A stretch of DNA of 64,000 nucleotides from Candidatus Hebobacterum abditum (GTDB taxonomy: Bacteria; Armatimonadota; Hebobacteria; Hebobacterales; Hebobacteraceae). The stretch lies in the NCBI GenBank assembly GCA_029821875.1, contig JALGXW010000005.1, forward strand, positions 62,001 through 126,000, written 5' to 3'. A model generated the notes under the pieces. It was not told the origin of the DNA and searched no databases. It saw only the letters and a list, made by a program, of their open reading frames with translations. Position 1 is the stretch's first letter, and each line of letters begins with the position of its first letter. Of the stretch, positions 26,018 through 61,813 are shown in pieces. Made by a program: the position numbers and the translations under genes.

Positions 26018-27289
26018 ATGGCGGATAAAGCGGTCTTGGGGCTGGACATCGGCACCAGCCGGATCAAATTCGTTGAGGCTCGCGGGGGACGCAGCGGCCC
26101 GGTCGTCACGAACGTCGGGATGGGAATGACGCCGCGAGACACAATCGCCAACGGCGTCATCGTCGATCCGGACACCCTCGGTGCGGCCGTGCGGCAGTTG
26201 CTGGCCGAGTACGGCGTTCGGACGCGCTCGGTCGTCAGCTCGGTTGCCAGCCAATCCTCTCTGGTTGTGCGCCCGATCGAGGTGCCGAGGATGACCAGGA
26301 GCGAGCTGACGGAAACGATGCAGTGGGAGGTCGATCGGCATATCCCATTTGCCGCCAGCGAGGTGGTCATGTCCTTCGAGCCGTTGATCCCTCCCGAAGA
26401 GCTTCCCGAGGAAGCTCAGAACATGGAGGTCCTGCTCGCGGTCGCGCAAGAGGACATGGTCGATGCGCACGTCCAGACCCTCTTCAACGCGGGGCTGGAC
26501 CCGGCGGCCCTCGATGTGGAGCCGCTGTCGGCGAGTCGCTCTCTCATCGACATCGTCGGCGAGCAGGGAGCCTACGATCGCACCTACGCGCTCCTGAACA
26601 TCGGCGCAAACACGACCGACCTGAGCATCTTCCGGCCGGGCGGCCTGCTGTCTTTCACGCGGCCGATCCCGATTGCAGGCGATACCGTCACGAATGCTGT
26701 CGCCGAGGCCTTGGGCTACGAGTTCCACGAAGCTGAGCGGGCCAAGATCGAGGAGGGACGCGTCTACAGCGAAGGCGCGCCGGCACTCGCCGCCTCGGCC
26801 GGCGGCGAGCCGCAGCCGCCCCCTGAGGTCGCGCCGGCGCCCCCACCCGACGAGCAGGGAGAGGGGGAGGAGCGGGTCTTCGATCTGGGCGCGGAAACCG
26901 GCCCCCAACAGCCGCCTGCTGAGAAACCGCCGCCCACGACGCTGCCTGCAGTTCATGCCCCGACGGCGGGTTCTTCCGAGCGCCAGGTCTACGACGCGAT
27001 GCTGCCGACGCTGGTAGAGCTGGTGACAGAGGTGAGGCGCTCCCTCGAGTACTACACGAACCGGTTCCCGGACTCCAGCGTGGACAGGATTCTGCTCTAC
27101 GGCGGCACCACCAGGCTGGGAAGCTTCCCCGAGTTCCTTGCGAACGAAGTCGGGATGGAGGTCGAAGTCGGCGATCCATTCCAGTATGTGGCCGTCGATG
27201 AGGCGAGCGTGCCCGCGGAGATGTTCCGAGACAACGCGTGCTTCATGCCCATCGTTGTGGGGCTCGCGATCCGCGACATGATTGACTGA
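26018..27289 (+). CDS. pilM: Type IV pilus assembly protein PilM (actin-like)
   Basis: PilM is the cytoplasmic actin-like ring protein that binds the N-terminal tail of PilN. The 423-aa product begins KAVLGLDIGTSRIKFVEARGGR and has the ATPase landmarks LLNIGANTTDLSIFRPGGLLSFTRPIPIAGDTVT and ILLYGGTTRLGSFPEFLANEVGMEV. Between about 257 and 330 it carries a Pro/Glu-rich insertion (APAPPPDEQGEGEERVFDLG and flanking residues). PilM proteins are commonly near 350 aa, so the insertion explains the excess. The ATG lies downstream of a strong promoter. It is followed by pilN with a short gap. Confidence 0.93.
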   Translation: MADKAVLGLDIGTSRIKFVEARGGRSGPVVTNVGMGMTPRDTIANGVIVDPDTLGAAVRQLLAEYGVRTRSVVSSVASQSSLVVRPIEVPRMTRSELTETMQWEVDRHIPFAASEVVMSFEPLIPPEELPEEAQNMEVLLAVAQEDMVDAHVQTLFNAGLDPAALDVEPLSASRSLIDIVGEQGAYDRTYALLNIGANTTDLSIFRPGGLLSFTRPIPIAGDTVTNAVAEALGYEFHEAERAKIEEGRVYSEGAPALAASAGGEPQPPPEVAPAPPPDEQGEGEERVFDLGAETGPQQPPAEKPPPTTLPAVHAPTAGSSERQVYDAMLPTLVELVTEVRRSLEYYTNRFPDSSVDRILLYGGTTRLGSFPEFLANEVGMEVEVGDPFQYVAVDEASVPAEMFRDNACFMPIVVGLAIRDMID

Positions 27290-29131: not shown

Positions 29132-29812
29132 ATGGGTGCGGCGGATCGGAACAAGATTCTCATCGCAGGGGGCGTCGCTGTCGTTGCCATCGCCCTCATC
29201 CTGTTCTTCGTCTTGCGGGGCCGCAGACGGGCGCCCCCGCAGTACCCCGCCTTCGCGACCGAGACGGCCGCTGAGGAGGCCGCGGCAGGTGGGGCGGGCA
29301 CGGGCGTGCCGCCGGCTCCCGGCACAGGGGAACCGGCGCCGCCGGGAGGAGAAGAGGCGCCCCGGGCGCCCGCGCCAACCCGCTCTGTCGGCGTGGTGCA
29401 GATGGCAACGGGCCCCGCCGAGCCCACCAGGACCGACCCATTCGAAACGCTGGATCCGCCCCCGCGGCCGACGCCGCCGGAGCTGTTGCTCTCGTTTCCG
29501 ACGGTGGGACTCGGCCCACTGCGCCCGCCCGGTGTCGGGGGGCCTCGTGTCGGCAACCGCCGCGTCGCCGGCTTGCTCTTCAACGACCAGGCGTGGGCGA
29601 TACTCGAGGACGAAGATGGAGAGACCTTCATCGTCAAGCCCGGCGATGTTGTTGATGGTATTCGCATAACGGCAATTGCGCGTGATTCCATCTACCTGAT
29701 GGACAGTGATGGCAAGAAGTGGCAAGTTCCGCTCCGCGGGCTCGGGCCGAGCACCGGCTCGGCCGGCGCAACGTCCACGGTGTCGGCCCTGCCGGCGGTG
29801 CCACCCGCCTAG
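29132..29812 (+). CDS. pilP: PilP-like pilus protein
   Basis: PilP bridges the PilN/PilO complex to the PilQ secretin. The 226-aa product has one N-terminal membrane anchor (about 9-26, ILIAGGVAVVAIALILFFVL), a Pro/Ala-rich linker (about 32-130) and a compact C-terminal beta domain (about 140-208: VAGLLFNDQAWAILEDEDGE..., FIVKPGDVVDGIRITAIARDSIYLM). That domain resembles the PilP/GspC homology region in which a GDxV turn precedes an IxxDxV-like strand. Typical PilP is a lipoprotein; here the anchor is a helix without a lipobox. The call rests largely on position in the pilM-N-O-P-Q order. Confidence 0.72.
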   Translation: MGAADRNKILIAGGVAVVAIALILFFVLRGRRRAPPQYPAFATETAAEEAAAGGAGTGVPPAPGTGEPAPPGGEEAPRAPAPTRSVGVVQMATGPAEPTRTDPFETLDPPPRPTPPELLLSFPTVGLGPLRPPGVGGPRVGNRRVAGLLFNDQAWAILEDEDGETFIVKPGDVVDGIRITAIARDSIYLMDSDGKKWQVPLRGLGPSTGSAGATSTVSALPAVPPA

Positions 29813-30815: not shown

Positions 30816-31010
30816 ACGCAGTCGACGCTGCGGCTGTTGCGAGCTGGATCGGACAGCGGGGTGGCCGCGGCGTTCGTTGTCTCGGACGGTCTGTCCGGAC
30901 GAGTTGTCTGCCGCTGAGGAGCGGGGGCAGCACAGCTTCGAACGGCCGAGAGTCGGCCTCAGCGAAGGGTGACAGCTGGCCAGATCAGCCATTTGTTTGG
31001 GAGGCGAGTG

Positions 31011-32588
31011 ATGAGGCGAGAATTGTTGGCACCGATCCTGTGCGCATTCCTGATGGCCTTGGGATCCCTGGCGGCAACGGCTTCTGAGAGTGCCACCGAC
31101 CCTGGTCGCGAGCTTGTGAGCATCCATGTCAGGGATGCGGACGTTCGGGATGTCGTCCAGACTATCATCACCGCCTCGGGTGCCAGCATCGTGCTGGCCG
31201 ACGTAGCGGGCCACATCACGCTCAACGTCGATAATGTGCCCGTGGAGAGGGTCCTCGAGATCATCTGCACCGCGAAGGGCCTACACTGGTGGCGCGACAC
31301 AGATGGCATCTACTTCGTCTCCGCAGAGCCGCGGCCGGCCTCCTCCGGCGAGGCATCGGCTCTGCCAGGCGTGACGGAGTCTGACGAGCAGAAGATGCTC
31401 TCGCAGATGTACCACCTGCAGTTCATGCCGCCGCGATACGTGGCCTGGCTCTTCGGCACGAGCGAGGACCCGGGCCCGCTTCCCTACGACCCTGATGTGC
31501 TGCTGGCCGATTCGGGATCGGTGCTCATGTCGGGCGTCAGGAGCTTCGGCACCGCAGGAGGGCCGGGTCAGTTCGGTGCCGGGGGCCGCGGCGGCGGTGG
31601 TGGGGGCCGCGGCGGCGGGGGCGTAGGCACGGGCTTCGGCGGCGGCGGTGGTGGCGGTCGCGGCGGCGTCGGCGGCGGCGCTGGCGGCGGCTTCATCGGC
31701 GCAGGCGCCTTCTCGCAGTTCCTGCCCGAGGGCATTGAGGCCATGATCGCCTTCCCGGTCTTGAACTCGCTCCTCATTCGGGGCACGGAAGAGGACATAA
31801 ACGAGCTCATAGAGATCCTCAAGTTCGTCGACCACAAGCCGCAGCAGATAATCGTGGAACTGCAGTCTGTCCAGGTGAGCACGAGCCTCCAGAAGCAGCT
31901 TGGGATGGACTGGTTCTACACCGTCGGCACCTTCGCCATCGAGACCTCGGATCTCCTCACTCCTGCCAACGTGATCGTTGAGTACGAGCCACCCGGCGAT
32001 CCGAACTTCTCGGCCACCCTCACCTATCTGCTCGAGACGGGGCGCGGGCGAATCGTAGACGCCATCCGCGTGTCGACAATGAACCTGCTGCCTGCCGTCA
32101 ACCAGGTGACCGTTAACTACCCATGGGTGACCGTGGGGGGCATCGCTGGCGACCCGTTCCGGGGGAGCAACATCCAGACGACCACGGTGACCACCTATCC
32201 GATTGTCACAAGTCTCATCATCACGCCCCGGATCAATGGGGACGGCACCATCACGATGTACATCCCGTTCCAGAAGAGCGTCATAAGCGGCTTTGTCGAA
32301 GTACCCGTGGGCCTGGATGCATCAGCTTCCTACCCGATCACGACCGTGAATACCCTGACGACAACGGTCAACGTCCGAGACGGCGAGACGTTTGTGGTCG
32401 GGGGGTTCGTCGAGAAGTCGGAGCTGGAATCGGAGACTCGGCTTCCAGTGCTCGGGCACATCCCTGTCCTCGGAGACCTGTTCTTCACGCGTAAGGCCCG
32501 CACCGTCAACGAAACCGAGACATTGATCTTCATCACGCCCCGCATCGTGAAAGAGGAGACCGCGCCGGCAACGCTGGGGCCGATCTAG
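31011..32588 (+). CDS. pilQ: Type IV pilus secretin PilQ
   Basis: PilQ forms the outer-membrane pore through which the pilus passes. I place the start at ATG 31011, where GGGAGGCGAG precedes it and a signal peptide follows (MRRELLAPILCAFLMALGSL...). The 525-aa protein has an STN/N0 domain (about 35-107), the strand QMYHLQFMPPRYVAWLFG (133-149), a Gly-rich linker (about 189-230) and an N1-type KH domain (about 236-285, VLNSLLIRGTEEDINELIEILKFVD). The secretin core ends with TTVNVRDGETFVVGGF, the TRLPVLGHIPVLGDLFF signature and LIFITPRIV. It is shorter than E. coli-type PilQ because AMIN domains are absent. Confidence 0.94.
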   Translation: MRRELLAPILCAFLMALGSLAATASESATDPGRELVSIHVRDADVRDVVQTIITASGASIVLADVAGHITLNVDNVPVERVLEIICTAKGLHWWRDTDGIYFVSAEPRPASSGEASALPGVTESDEQKMLSQMYHLQFMPPRYVAWLFGTSEDPGPLPYDPDVLLADSGSVLMSGVRSFGTAGGPGQFGAGGRGGGGGGRGGGGVGTGFGGGGGGGRGGVGGGAGGGFIGAGAFSQFLPEGIEAMIAFPVLNSLLIRGTEEDINELIEILKFVDHKPQQIIVELQSVQVSTSLQKQLGMDWFYTVGTFAIETSDLLTPANVIVEYEPPGDPNFSATLTYLLETGRGRIVDAIRVSTMNLLPAVNQVTVNYPWVTVGGIAGDPFRGSNIQTTTVTTYPIVTSLIITPRINGDGTITMYIPFQKSVISGFVEVPVGLDASASYPITTVNTLTTTVNVRDGETFVVGGFVEKSELESETRLPVLGHIPVLGDLFFTRKARTVNETETLIFITPRIVKEETAPATLGPI

Positions 32589-32655: not shown

Positions 32656-32678
32656 CTGATGTTTGGAGGGTGTCGCGG

Positions 32679-33776
32679 ATGACCGCCGATGGCATGCCGC
32701 CCCTCAGAGTCGAACTCGGGGAGCGGTCGTACGAAATCCATGTGGGAATTGGTGCCCTCTCGCTCGCGGGTGCCCTCATTCGCTCAGATGTAGGGGAGCG
32801 GGGCATCATCGTCACGCATCCGAGCGTCGACCGTCTCCACGGCGAGGCGCTGCGGACGGGCCTGGGGTGCTTTGCCGGGGAGACCGTGCTCGTACCGTCG
32901 GGGGAGAGGCAGAAGTCGCTCCGGCGTGCCAAGCTACTCTGGGATGAGTTGCTCTCGCGGGGGGCAGACCGGCGTTCCGTGATCCTGGCCTTCGGTGGCG
33001 GCGTGATAGGCGACCTCGCGGGGTTTGTCACCGCCACCTACATGCGGGGCCTTCCCTATGTTCAGGTGCCGACCACGCTGCTCGCCCAGGTCGATGCCTC
33101 GGTCGGCGGCAAGGTGGCCATCAACCATCCCCGCGTCAAGAATCTCATTGGAGCTTTCTATCAGCCGCGGCTGGTGCTTGCAGACGTTTCGACCCTGGCG
33201 ACGCTGCGGCCGCGCGACTACCGCGAGGGGCTGGCAGAGGTCGTCAAGCACGCTGTCATCGCCGATGCCGGGCTTTTCTCCTGGCTTGAGCAGAACTACC
33301 GGGCGGTCCTCAAGCGGGACCCGGACACCCTCGCCTATCTCGTTCGCCGCAACTGCGAGATCAAGGCGGAGGTCGTGCAGGCCGATGAGCGCGAATCCGG
33401 GTTGCGCGCTGTGCTCAACTTCGGCCATACCTTCGCCCATGCCTTGGAGTCGTTGACGGAATACCGACGCCTGAGGCACGGCGAGGCCGTCTCCATTGGC
33501 ATGTGTGCGTCCGCCCGCGTAGCCCAGCGGCTGAGCATGATCTCGGAATCTGATCGACAGCGGCTGGTGAACCTGCTGTCGGTTCTCCGATTGCCGATCA
33601 GAATCCCCGCTGCACCGGCCTCGGCGATCCTCGATGCAATCCGGTCCGACAAGAAAGCTCTCGCCCGGTCGCCGCGCTTTGTGCTGCCGACCGGGATCGG
33701 GCACGTCGAGATCGGCTGCGAAGTCCCCGAGTCCCTACTTCGGGAAGTGCTGACGGAAGTCAGAGTTGTCAACTGA
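32679..33776 (+). CDS. aroB: 3-dehydroquinate synthase
   Basis: AroB catalyses the second step of the shikimate pathway, cyclising DAHP with transient NAD oxidation. The ATG at 32679 follows GGAGG (32665-32669); the in-frame GTG at 32670 is too close to that site. The 365-aa product has the conserved RSVILAFGGGVIGDLAGFVTATYMRG, VPTTLLAQVDASVGGKVAINHPRVKNLIGAFYQP, the zinc-binding Glu in REGLAEVVKHAVIAD and the His residues of NFGHTFAHALE and LRHGEAVSIGM. The length is normal. It overlaps the preferred PHP-gene transcript with only 16 bp between them. Confidence 0.97.
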   Translation: MTADGMPPLRVELGERSYEIHVGIGALSLAGALIRSDVGERGIIVTHPSVDRLHGEALRTGLGCFAGETVLVPSGERQKSLRRAKLLWDELLSRGADRRSVILAFGGGVIGDLAGFVTATYMRGLPYVQVPTTLLAQVDASVGGKVAINHPRVKNLIGAFYQPRLVLADVSTLATLRPRDYREGLAEVVKHAVIADAGLFSWLEQNYRAVLKRDPDTLAYLVRRNCEIKAEVVQADERESGLRAVLNFGHTFAHALESLTEYRRLRHGEAVSIGMCASARVAQRLSMISESDRQRLVNLLSVLRLPIRIPAAPASAILDAIRSDKKALARSPRFVLPTGIGHVEIGCEVPESLLREVLTEVRVVN

Positions 33777-57791: not shown

Positions 57792-60700
57792 TCAGTCCTC
57801 CCCGTCTGTCTCACTGACAATGCGGGGCTTCACGATCAGTGTGTGCCAGGAGCCCTCGCAGTGGGAGACGAAGCCGACGACCTCTCCATCCTTGACGTTG
57901 ACAACGGCAGACGCCAAGCTCCTCGCGGCCGCCGCCCCTGCTTTGAAGTCGTTCTCCGTCATCATCTCCCGGTCTGCTTGCCTCACCTCGGCGCGGAGCG
58001 TGATGGTCCCGTCGCCGTTGATCCTGGGCGTGATCGCGAGGAGGAGCGTGTTGGCGCCCGCGGTGGTGACAGCGGGCATGAGATTCATCGAAGCCACTCT
58101 TTCAGCGCGACACGGAGCCTCCGCGGACGGTGTCGCATCGGGAACGAATCCCAAGAAGGGTCCTCGCACAGCGCCTCCGTGTTCAGACTCTCCTTGGAAG
58201 AAGTCCGACTCGTGCGTGCCGACGGGCAGGCCCCGAAAGCCGAAGATGTCCAGGATCACCTGCTGCGGCTTCCGGTCCACGAGCTTGATCAACTCGATGA
58301 GTTCGTTGATGCTCTCCTCCGTGCCCCGGATCAGGAGCGCATTCAGAGGGGAGAAGGCGACCACTGCGTCGATACCTTCGGGCACGAACATTGCGAGCGC
58401 GCCCTTGCCCTGGAGGTCGCCGCCGTCGCCGCTACCAGCGCCTGGGCCGCCTGGCATCGTCGCCGAACCTACGTCATCCAGATCGGACCGGAACCACATG
58501 GGGCCGGGATCATCCGAATACCCGAGCACATAGGCGATGTAGATGGGCGGCATATACTGTAGTTGGTACATCCGGGAGACTCTGTCGCCAGCCGTCTCTG
58601 ACGTCGCGTCTGTTTCGGCCCCCCCCGCCTTCGGCTTGGTGGAGACGATGTAGGCCCCGGTCTCGTGCCGCGACCAGTGCCAGCCCTTTGCCTCGCAGAT
58701 CGTGTCGAGGAGCACCTCCGCATTCGCCGGGAGGTTTGCCTTGAGTGTGATCGGGCCCTCGACCCCTCTCCGCAGCACGATGATGGCCCCCGTGCTGCGG
58801 GAAACGGCCTGCATGACGTGCTCGACGTCCAGGCCCTGCGCCTCGATCTCCATGGTGTCCGCTCGGGAGTCACCGGCGACCGCGTTTTCCTTCAGCCACT
58901 CCAGCAGTACCTGGAGGTCCTCGCCGCTGACGCGGTATCTCTCGTCGGGCGCGATCACCCGCAGGCCATGCTCCCGGACCTCGCTCAATTCGGGTGACAA
59001 TGGCCGACCATCTGGGGTGGCGCTGATGAAGATGAGGAAAGCTTCCTCAGTTCGCTCCGCCTCGCCCTCGGACGCGCCGCCTCTCCAGGTGTATAGATGG
59101 GGGGCAGTGAAGAGGACATACTCCCCGGCTCGCTTCGCCTCGGCCGCGGGCGCTTCGTCATCGGTCGGGGCGGCAGCCTCTTCCTCGGGCTTCCCCTTCC
59201 GTTGGATGCGGGCCAGGATCTCACTGGCAAACGCATCAATTCTCGATCTCGATCCCGCACCCCCCACCCAGGCCCACCACTGCCACTTCTCGTCAGCCAG
59301 CACGTCCGTGCCACCGTGTGGTGGTGGCAGAAGCTCCTCTTCCGGAACGGATTCGTTGACCTCGAGCAGCACCACCTCCAGCTCGGTCGACCCGGTCAGG
59401 ACCCAGTTGCCATTCGCGTCCTGCCGCTCGCCCTTCCGGGCCACGACAGTGGGCGTCCACAGGCCCTCCAACACCTCGCGGAAGCCGGAGTAGTCCCAAC
59501 TATGGCGGAGATAGACACTCGCCGGGAAGTTCTTGTATCCGGTCGCCTCTCCCTCGGCCCGCACAACCGCGTGCCCGAGCGCGGGACAGACCCACAGCCG
59601 CTCGAACCCCTTGACGTCCAGTTCGTCGTACTCAATCACCTGGCAGGTCAGGCCGTTGACCGTGTCTTCCCCGATGAGCCGCGGATTGCCCGATCTGATC
59701 ACCCATAGGTGCCGAGGAACGCCGAGGTCAGAATCAACATCGACCCAGCGGGACAGGCCTAGCTCCCTGGCCAGCGACGAGCCCGCCCCGCCCACGAGCC
59801 TCCCTTCACATTCCTCCCTGAGAACGAACTCTCGGCTGGAGCTTCCTGACTTTGGGCTGTACGACCAGTAGTTCTTCCCGTCACAGCCGTACATCGTGCC
59901 ACTCGCCTTGTCTTCCGGAGAGGCGGTCCGCCGGGAGTTACGGTATCTGCCCTCCACCCAGGCTGAATGCTCGTGGATCACGCTCTCGATCAGCACCGTC
60001 CCGGTGAAGTCGTTCTCCGCCTCCCACCGCGGGACGACGATCCCAACACGAGGCCTGGGCGATTCCTCCTTCTGCTCGGCCTGATCGTCGACGCGAACCG
60101 GAGCCGTCTCGCCGTCACCCTCGCGCGCTGTCTTACGGATGACGTAGAAGCCTCGGATGCTGCGCAGCTCTCGCCGTACCAGTTCCCCTCTTGCCTCCAT
60201 CCCCTGGATCAGCCGTTCCAGTGATGGGTCGGTCACCTTCCCGTCTCCTTCGCTGGAGCCATGCGCCGAGAGGCCCAATGCGGTGGCGGCGAGCACGAGC
60301 CCTCCGAGTGCGAAGACAGCTGCGAAACCTGACGGGACGCGATGTCTGCGGGGCTCTGAGACTCCGAGGATTCGCTGTACGCGGGTCAGCAGCGAGCCGT
60401 TGACAGAAGCGACGGCTGGCCTCGGTCCCCGGAGCCCCTCCAACTCGGTCAATGCCCTCGCATAGCCGGCCGCATCCCCACACACTGCGACCGCCGCGTC
60501 ATCGCAGCAGTGCTCCCGCTCCAGTCGGATTCGGTTCGACAGCCACCAGACCGCGGGGTGATAGAAGAGGAGGGTCTCGACGATGGTCTGCGCGAGGTTG
60601 ATAACGTAGTCGTGTCGGCGGATGTGTGCCAGCTCATGGGCGATGATCGCCTCAAGCTGCGCCGAACTCAGGCCCGTCACTGCGCCGGCGGGGAGCAGGA

Positions 60701-61343
60701 TGGCCGGCCGGAGCCAGCCCATGACCATCGGCGCTTGGTGGGCCGCTGACTGAAGCAAGCGCACCGGCCGGCTGATCCGGAGCCGCGCGCACAGCGCGCT
60801 TAATGTCTGCCGCCACGGCCCCTCCGTCACCTCCTCCGCCGTCCGTCGTGTGTGGCGCAACCTGATACATCCGATTCCCAGCCGTAGAGAGAGCACGAGC
60901 ACACCAAGTGCCCAGGCTGCCGCGAGCCAGCCGAGCTGTCGCTCAATCCACTCCGAGACCAGTCGTACGCGACTACTCAAGGCAGCTCGTCCGGCCGATG
61001 TCGGCGTCGCCGCTGCAGATCTGTCGGCGCCTGTGGGCCGCAGAGCTGTCGCTGGGGTCCTGTGCAACTCCTCTGGCCGAATCTGTGCATACATAGCAGA
61101 TGGACCGACGTCGCTGGGCGCACTGTCTGGCAGCGCAAGGAAGGTGACGACCGGGCAGACGGCCATCGCCGCGAACACCGCCAGCAGAGCCAGGTAGCGC
61201 GCGGCGGCCGACGCCCGGTGCAGCGCGAGCAGCAGCGCACCGGCCACCAGCGCGGCCGCCGCTCCCTGCCAGGTGAAGTGCAGCAGCGTGCGGCCGATCC
61301 TGAGCACACTCTCGTCTTGAAGCAGCGTCGCGAAAGCGTTCAT
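57792..61343 (-). CDS. M56 (BlaR1/MecR1-type) protease fused to secretin-like sensor domain
   Basis: The 1183-aa membrane protein has three parts. (1) An M56 antirepressor core: helices at about 20-45, 48-72 and 138-158, the zinc motif HELAH (236-240) in an HELAHIRRHD context, REHCCDD (276-282) and a fourth helix near 337-360. (2) A middle region (about 385-680) with a LolA-like beta style (GKNYWSYSPKSG, CQVIEYDELDVKGFERLWVCPALGHAV). (3) A secretin-like C-terminus: STN/N0 (829-905), RMYQLQYMPPIYIAYVLG (924-941), N1-type KH (986-1033, NALLIRGTEESINELIELIKLVD), then NLMPAV and ITPRINGDGTITL, ending in a short core. BlaR1 proteins normally end in a penicillin-binding domain, absent here. The ATG overlaps the blaI stop as ATGA. 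Confidence 0.88.
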   Translation of the reverse strand: MNAFATLLQDESVLRIGRTLLHFTWQGAAAALVAGALLLALHRASAAARYLALLAVFAAMAVCPVVTFLALPDSAPSDVGPSAMYAQIRPEELHRTPATALRPTGADRSAAATPTSAGRAALSSRVRLVSEWIERQLGWLAAAWALGVLVLSLRLGIGCIRLRHTRRTAEEVTEGPWRQTLSALCARLRISRPVRLLQSAAHQAPMVMGWLRPAILLPAGAVTGLSSAQLEAIIAHELAHIRRHDYVINLAQTIVETLLFYHPAVWWLSNRIRLEREHCCDDAAVAVCGDAAGYARALTELEGLRGPRPAVASVNGSLLTRVQRILGVSEPRRHRVPSGFAAVFALGGLVLAATALGLSAHGSSEGDGKVTDPSLERLIQGMEARGELVRRELRSIRGFYVIRKTAREGDGETAPVRVDDQAEQKEESPRPRVGIVVPRWEAENDFTGTVLIESVIHEHSAWVEGRYRNSRRTASPEDKASGTMYGCDGKNYWSYSPKSGSSSREFVLREECEGRLVGGAGSSLARELGLSRWVDVDSDLGVPRHLWVIRSGNPRLIGEDTVNGLTCQVIEYDELDVKGFERLWVCPALGHAVVRAEGEATGYKNFPASVYLRHSWDYSGFREVLEGLWTPTVVARKGERQDANGNWVLTGSTELEVVLLEVNESVPEEELLPPPHGGTDVLADEKWQWWAWVGGAGSRSRIDAFASEILARIQRKGKPEEEAAAPTDDEAPAAEAKRAGEYVLFTAPHLYTWRGGASEGEAERTEEAFLIFISATPDGRPLSPELSEVREHGLRVIAPDERYRVSGEDLQVLLEWLKENAVAGDSRADTMEIEAQGLDVEHVMQAVSRSTGAIIVLRRGVEGPITLKANLPANAEVLLDTICEAKGWHWSRHETGAYIVSTKPKAGGAETDATSETAGDRVSRMYQLQYMPPIYIAYVLGYSDDPGPMWFRSDLDDVGSATMPGGPGAGSGDGGDLQGKGALAMFVPEGIDAVVAFSPLNALLIRGTEESINELIELIKLVDRKPQQVILDIFGFRGLPVGTHESDFFQGESEHGGAVRGPFLGFVPDATPSAEAPCRAERVASMNLMPAVTTAGANTLLLAITPRINGDGTITLRAEVRQADREMMTENDFKAGAAAARSLASAVVNVKDGEVVGFVSHCEGSWHTLIVKPRIVSETDGED

Positions 61344-61729
61344 CGCTTCCCCCCTTCGATCTCGTCCAGGAGTCGCCGGATCTCGGCGAGCTCCTCCGGC
61401 TTCGCCTTCTTCTGGGAGAGCGCGTGGAGCACGAGTTGGGTCGCCGACCCGTCGAACACCCGGTCCAGCAGGTCGTTGGCGAGTCGCCCGGCGACGGTTC
61501 GGCGGCTGTGCCGCGCGCGGTAGATGTGGGCACGTTGACGGTCATCACGCAGCACGAGCCCCTTGTCGGCCATGATCTGGAGCATCTTGAGCACGGTCGT
61601 GTAGCCGACGCGGCGGCGCTTCGACAAAGCCTTCATCACGGCGCGAACCGTGCTGGGCCCCTCCCCCCACAGCACCTTCAGGATCTCCAGCTCCAGATCG
61701 GTCGGTCGCCCGGTTCCTCGACGCGCCAT
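61340..61729 (-). CDS. blaI: BlaI/MecI/CopY-family transcriptional repressor
   Basis: The repressor is a winged-helix dimer that the partner M56 protease cleaves. I place the start at ATG 61729, 8 nt after GGAGG, giving 129 aa. The DNA-binding part is GRPTDLELEILKVLWGEGPSTVRAVMKALSKRRRVGYTTVLKMLQIMADKGLVLRDDRQRAHIYRA. YTTVLKMLQIM is the recognition helix typical of the family, and the C-terminal dimer helices follow. The promoter region holds two palindromes that look like its operators, consistent with autoregulation. It is co-transcribed with the M56 protein (ATGA overlap). Confidence 0.93.
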   Translation of the reverse strand: MARRGTGRPTDLELEILKVLWGEGPSTVRAVMKALSKRRRVGYTTVLKMLQIMADKGLVLRDDRQRAHIYRARHSRRTVAGRLANDLLDRVFDGSATQLVLHALSQKKAKPEELAEIRRLLDEIEGGKR

Positions 61730-61750
61730 GTTGCCTGCCTCCGGACTGTC

Positions 61751-61813
61751 TACGAATGATTTCGTACGATAGTGTACCACATGATGTTCGAGCTGTCAAC
61801 GAAGGATTTCGTA
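61751..61813 (-). promoter_or_regulatory. blaI promoter with two operator palindromes
   Basis: On the minus strand TTGACA (61799-61794) and TACACT (61776-61771) are 17 bp apart. Palindrome 1, TACGAATGATTTCGTA (61751-61766), covers the start region. Palindrome 2, AACGAAGGATTTCGTA (61798-61813), covers the upstream edge of the -35. They share the core ACGAA-N4-TTCGT and lie 47 bp apart centre to centre. The pair flanking a promoter is what a BlaI-type autorepressor needs. The remaining 61814-61986 gap holds a hairpin at 61878-61905 and a lone TATAAT (minus) at 61965-61960. Confidence 0.78.

Follow-up and report, generated by a model that had tools for sequence, protein, structure and literature searches.

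A BlaR1-type M56 membrane protease with a C-terminal tail derived from the secretin PilQ in Candidatus Hebobacterum abditum

In the 64,000-nucleotide stretch analyzed here (the window) from the genome of Candidatus Hebobacterum abditum, an uncultured member of the Armatimonadota, we found a BlaI-linked membrane metalloprotease of the M56 family whose C-terminal tail descends from the secretin PilQ. Judged from its sequence, this receptor is a sensor-swapped form of a known switch, real, well formed, and unusual, and a link to the pilus is plausible. The gene encodes 1183 aa from an ATG without an internal stop; a previous sequence-only reading had placed it correctly but given no strand, which is minus. 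In the protein, four predicted transmembrane (TM) helices and the M56 core are followed by a LolA/DUF2092-like region, an N0 domain, an N1 domain, and a reduced secretin core (table 1). Marine sediments were the source of the organisms on which the class Hebobacteria was described (PMC10290634).

Table 1. Features of the receptor locus and of the pilus cluster (window coordinates).
Feature	Position	Strand	Basis
M56 membrane metalloprotease of BlaR1 type, 1183 aa, with C-terminal tail of secretin origin	57792-61343	-	Single open frame; Pfam M56 1.5e-31
Peptidase_M56 domain, residues 60-310	60414-61166	-	Pfam 1.5e-31
Zinc site HELAH, residues 236-240	60624-60638	-	E277 as third ligand (BlaR1 spacing), plus D281
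LolA/DUF2092-like region, predicted extracytoplasmic, residues ~364-695	59259-60254	-	Homologues; hhalign to DUF2092
Secretin N0 (STN-type) domain, residues 830-905	58629-58856	-	Pfam type_II_gspD_N0 3e-4 (tail alone); model strands and helices
Secretin N1 domain, residues 918-1033	58245-58592	-	Pfam Secretin_N 3e-5 (tail alone); residues 965-1033 59% identical to PilQ
Reduced secretin core lacking LPVLGHIPVLGDL segment, residues 1034-1183	57795-58244	-	Pfam Secretin (positions 59-117 only), alignments, shuffle test
blaI-type repressor gene, 129 aa from ATG 61727-61729, 4-nt overlap with M56 start	61340-61729	-	Pfam Penicillinase_R 1.4e-27
blaI ribosome site	61738-61742	-	Sequence inspection with start ATG 61727-61729
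blaI promoter: TTGACA 61794-61799, 17-bp spacer, TACACT 61771-61776	61771-61799	-	Aligned with G012 orthologue
Operator O1 TACGAAATCATTCGTA, perfect palindrome directly downstream of -10	61751-61766	-	Palindrome search
Operator O2 TACGAAATCCTTCGTT, 2-nt overlap with -35	61798-61813	-	Palindrome search
PilM	26018-27289		
PilP-like protein	29132-29812		
Two-STN protein, 257 aa	29953-30726	+	Pfam 2e-17
PilQ secretin, 539 aa, tail paralogue, in pilM...pilQ-aroB cluster	30969-32588	+	Pfam Secretin 2e-31
aroB	32670-33776		

As had been read from the letters, the N-terminal part of the receptor is an M56 antirepressor core; the gene is paired with a blaI that overlaps its start. The HELAH motif lies where it had been placed, four TM-like hydropathy peaks (residues 23-41, 51-69, 142-160, and 340-358) agree with the four helices expected, and the solved BlaR1 structures 8exp and 8exs match this part of the protein (E 0.006). 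The HExxH residues H236, E237, and H240 are present together with E277 as third glutamate ligand by BlaR1 spacing, and HELAH, E277, and D281 plausibly form a complete zinc site. We take the catalytic residues of BlaR1 to be H201/E202/H205/E242/D246. Their spacing in BlaR1 (PMC9834060) is identical to that in the receptor. Profile searches, including Pfam, detected no transpeptidase or beta-lactamase family in the receptor C-terminus that could represent a penicillin-binding sensor; the N-terminal part matched only M56/M48-type metalloproteases, with no cytoplasmic anti-sigma domain.

Two TACGAA-N4-TTCGTA palindromes, O1 and O2, straddle the -35 and -10 elements of the blaI promoter, and a site resembling O1, TACGAAAGAAGTCGTA, is found in the G012 orthologue. 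Genome-wide, the pattern occurred once exactly and at four places with one mismatch, one of them O2; the three others (on C42, C81, and C95; L083-L085), considered as members of a wider BlaI regulon, were rejected as chance-like sites inside long open frames. Sites with up to two mismatches numbered 48 in all, compared with 29 for the reversed pattern, which suggests that they are mostly due to chance. The same genome-wide search revealed no operator near pilQ or other pil genes, and no further convincing operator or target operon besides that of blaI itself. Because the pattern was found convincingly only at the blaI promoter, only autoregulation is visible, and this predicted autoregulation of BlaI through O1 and O2 is well supported by sequence. 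The earlier proposal of a sensor controlling a BlaI repressor therefore holds as far as the overlapping blaI and the tandem promoter palindromes go; no support was found for BlaI control beyond its own operon. A different palindrome, TACTAA-N7-TTAGTA, was observed upstream of paralogous blaI-M56 pairs (L047:1670, L051:1334, and L040:3333), suggesting that the BlaI paralogues are insulated.

The tail proved to be a paralogue of PilQ. Its Smith-Waterman score against PilQ was 448, compared with a maximum of 69 in 300 shuffles, and the part after KPQQ alone scored 93, compared with a maximum of 63 in 500 shuffles; identity to PilQ reached 42% over residues 823-980 (E 2e-22) and 59% over residues 965-1033 (E 8e-20). 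The five sequence blocks described earlier as shared were all present, in the same order, in both proteins, and from KPQQ to the end we counted 159 residues in the receptor and 250 in PilQ (previously about 158 and 246). With the full-length receptor, the Pfam matches to GspD N0 (residues 836-881, 0.0026), Secretin_N (994-1028, 1.4e-4), and Secretin (1100-1156, 0.02) all fell below their curated cut-offs, the last (PF00263) with 15 bits against 27.5, spanning model positions 59-117 of 169 and so short of a complete core; for the N0 and N1 domains, however, the pairwise and fold matches were strong. An AlphaFold2 model of the tail, built from a ten-sequence alignment, was of modest confidence (pLDDT 59) and gave low TM-scores, as expected for a flexible multi-domain model. 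When this model was searched with Foldseek, all 50 PDB matches at E<=0.001 were secretins, secretin N domains, or secretin-containing complexes. A C-terminus unrelated to secretin N domains is excluded. The secretin core is indeed reduced: of the 169 positions in the Secretin model, the tail, like the second one described below, retains no more than about 54-117, and in the alignments with PilQ the LTYLLETGRGR, NYPWVTVGG...TTY, and LPVLGHIPVLGDL stretches are absent from the tail. The alignments of both known tails (see below) also lack the conserved LPVLGxIPxLG end segment. Because the barrel segments and the LPVLG-type end motif are missing, the tail should not form a barrel or a pore.

The LolA-like assignment of the middle region is putative and profile-based. 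Homologues of residues ~364-695 within the phylum are proteins of ~300-460 aa, and their profile matched the DUF2092 family with an hhalign probability of 96% (reversed control, 0.2%), but direct Pfam and PDB sequence searches gave no usable match to LolA, and folding the region from its sequence alone yielded no informative model (pLDDT 37). The DUF2092 family is grouped with the LolA-type folds.

The pilus cluster of the window, with pilQ about 25 kb from the receptor gene, also encodes the two-STN protein, located between the pilP-like gene and pilQ; it is a possible partner of the tail. Further secretin-like genes were observed elsewhere. A 761-codon frame (L107:4022-6307, on G000:C64) with weak Secretin and Secretin_N matches keeps the FPVLGQLPLVGRLF motif and represents a second degenerate secretin-like protein, and at L108 (G000:C27:35700-39573) three complete secretin-domain genes follow one another.

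The same reduced tail was observed in the independently assembled genome of another species of the genus, Candidatus Hebobacteria bacterium M3-38_Bin_440 (G001; Armatimonadota). There, a 758-codon frame, cut by a contig end, combines the last part of an M56 region with CarboxypepD_reg domains and the tail, which lacks N0 and is attached to an unrelated middle region. On both flanks, this gene matches L047 (1375 aa), another of the BlaI-M56 genes in the present genome and not an orthologue of the receptor. Alignment of the flanking DNA extends to 15 nt before the L047 stop (76% over 72 bp) and resumes 9 nt beyond the stop (87% over 2.3 kb), and ~790 nt of tail lie between these flanks in G001 only, with L047 ending where the tail would begin; the join of contigs C272 and C29 in G001 is putative, backed by synteny and an ~80-bp overlap that includes a few mismatches. 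Both tails retain N1 and the INGDGTIT core, and both show features missing in PilQ, namely RGLPV and the same deletions; RGLPV and INGDGTITL are shared although the tails are ~2.4 changes per site apart. In the tree, the two tails formed one clade (support 95/94) beside the PilQs of the family, with a long G001 branch whose exact position is less sure. The losses common to both tails and their joint clustering argue that the reduced form has been kept by selection. The simplest history would be a single duplication and reduction of pilQ, followed either by losses or by a move of the tail from one M56 gene to another.

Among 291 Armatimonadota genomes, no secretin-derived M56 tail was found beyond these two species of one genus, the other matches listed being frames of ordinary secretin size or fragments; outside the phylum, such fusions were sought by a peptide-pattern scan of genome contigs only. 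A literature search found no paper joining M56 or BlaR1 with secretin. The sequence-only reading had proposed a search of other genomes for M56-STN fusions and saw here a candidate for an undescribed system; the system is a known one with a swapped sensor, seen in two species among the 291 genomes. M56 genes occur in 7 of the 14 genomes of the class (six genes in the present genome), and a BlaI relative lies directly upstream at 11 of the 12 M56 loci checked, the exception being L052 (G000:C51). At the gyrA-archease locus, the receptor orthologue is absent in G002 and G003, and the G001 contig ends 0.3 kb past archease. The closest relative of the M56-BlaI pair in the family, an M56 gene of G002 (48%; L039, G002:C1:1593691), is cut by a run of N that hides its sensor part, and the family members bearing pilQ mostly lack the receptor gene. 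The C-terminal parts of other M56 proteins of the class carry CarboxypepD_reg (L047), about 15 HEAT_2 repeats (L049), or two DUF881 domains (9.8e-53; L056), and weak pseudopilin-like DUF1559-type segments were noted, partly by eye, in L048 and L050. An STN domain suspected by eye in the M56 protein L042 (G000:C37) had no Pfam support and was discarded.

For the function of the receptor, we tentatively favor, at somewhat below an even chance, a BlaR1-BlaI-type transmembrane switch whose swapped sensor contacts the N domains of the pilus secretin or their partners. BlaI would repress its own operon via the two palindromes, and the tail would use homotypic N0/N1 contacts to dock onto the secretin of the type IV pilus or onto inner-membrane partners of the PilP/PilN/PilO class. 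If this contact were altered by a missing, misassembled, or engaged secretin, a signal would pass through the TM bundle, the cytoplasmic protease would open, and BlaI would be cut; the LolA-like region may supply a second input of lipid or lipoprotein type. BlaR1 cleaves BlaI directly (PMC9834060), and cleavage by the receptor is presumed by homology. In PupR and FoxR, proteolysis-controlled membrane regulators, the protein ends in an STN domain that helps to bind the partner's STN/signaling domain, which belongs to an outer-membrane transducer (PMC7186176, PMC11637429). By analogy with this pairing, the tail is expected to contact the N domains of PilQ or its inner-membrane partners, and the analogy suggests the state of the pilus or envelope as its signal; contact, signal, and response are thus what we infer from related systems. 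The catalytic residues with BlaR1 spacing, the operators unique to the blaI promoter, and the homology of tail and PilQ count for such a switch. Against its pilus part, the tie between tail and PilQ is one of ancestry alone, pilQ is distant and has no operator, the only target operon found is the receptor's own, and pilQ-bearing family members mostly lack the receptor gene. In addition, contact through N0 cannot be general because the G001 tail has no N0, and the choice of sensor may be loose because sibling M56 proteins carry HEAT, DUF881, and CarboxypepD_reg. A bolder version, which we consider rather unlikely, is that a decoy secretin protomer from a duplicated pilQ was wired to the protease and reports assembly or engagement of the exit channel by homotypic N-domain contacts, leading to destruction of BlaI. 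In the literature searched, we encountered no system of protease and repressor that monitors an outer-membrane secretin.

The main rival, serious although not the likelier account, is that the M56 receptors of this lineage acquire whatever envelope domains are available, and that the tail serves as a generic module for interaction or dimerization outside the cytoplasm, with a ligand other than the pilus machinery, such as peptidoglycan, polysaccharide, or another STN protein. The gene-to-gene variation of the C-terminal parts (CarboxypepD_reg, HEAT, DUF881, and possibly DUF1559), the unrelated middle region and missing N0 in G001, the free two-STN protein encoded among the pilus genes, and the position of the pil genes outside the operator regulon all agree with such a module; however, both tails derive from PilQ itself rather than from other STN sources, and both kept N1 and the INGDGTIT core. 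It is improbable that the LolA/DUF2092-like region is the real, RseB-like sensor and the tail a passive or decaying extension. A precedent exists in the protease cascade of RseB and RseA, where a LolA-type fold senses lipids or lipoproteins of the envelope, and orthologous genes may have the tail at their 3' end or lack it, but the tail keeps an open frame with coding composition (GC3 0.78-0.92), and the motifs common to both tails persist across their divergence. Very improbable is a structural pilus part whose tail still assembles a secretin-like periplasmic ring; N0/N1 domains do form rings in secretins, but the tail has lost the barrel core and end motif, and the M56 catalytic residues and blaI linkage are kept. 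Finally, the draft state of the genome (103 contigs, 3.7% contamination) could suggest that two genes were joined in error during assembly or binning, but we rejected this explanation as scarcely credible, since GC at the codon positions stays even throughout the receptor frame, the longest exact DNA match between receptor and pilQ is 12 nt, and in an independently assembled species the same tail, likewise reduced, is found on another BlaI-M56 gene.

If the favored pilus-contacting switch is correct, the cell would have a direct route for checking its pilus secretin, and the presence or absence of the tail on orthologous genes in two species makes its contribution directly testable. Compared with BlaR1-BlaI and MecR1-MecI, the receptor shares the M56 gluzincin core, a predicted TM bundle, the neighboring repressor of the BlaI family, promoter palindromes as operators, and a C-terminal sensor part that is presumably extracytoplasmic, but LolA/DUF2092-like and secretin-derived domains replace the penicillin-binding sensor, and no beta-lactamase or PBP target gene was seen. 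From PilQ, the tail has N0, N1, and part of the secretin core by direct ancestry, but it is devoid of the barrel segments and LPVLG-type end motif, and the predicted TM helices would tether it to the inner membrane. As in RseB-RseA, a LolA-type domain may govern a membrane proteolytic switch, although here the domain is fused in cis and its LolA assignment is profile-based only. In PupR, FoxR, and FecR, which are inner-membrane regulators under proteolytic control, the extracytoplasmic C-terminal part also contains an STN-type domain (PMC7186176, PMC11637429). Their output is a sigma factor via site-1/site-2 proteases and their partner a TonB-dependent transducer, whereas the receptor would act through an M56 protease and BlaI. 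Modular sensor replacement on an M56 core is shared with M56 proteins with other C-terminal fusions, here DUF881, HEAT, and CarboxypepD_reg and elsewhere TonB_C, but the secretin module was seen only within this genus. The receptor shows that the architecture of BlaR1-BlaI, familiar chiefly from antibiotic sensing, can draw its presumed sensor from a component of an envelope machine itself.
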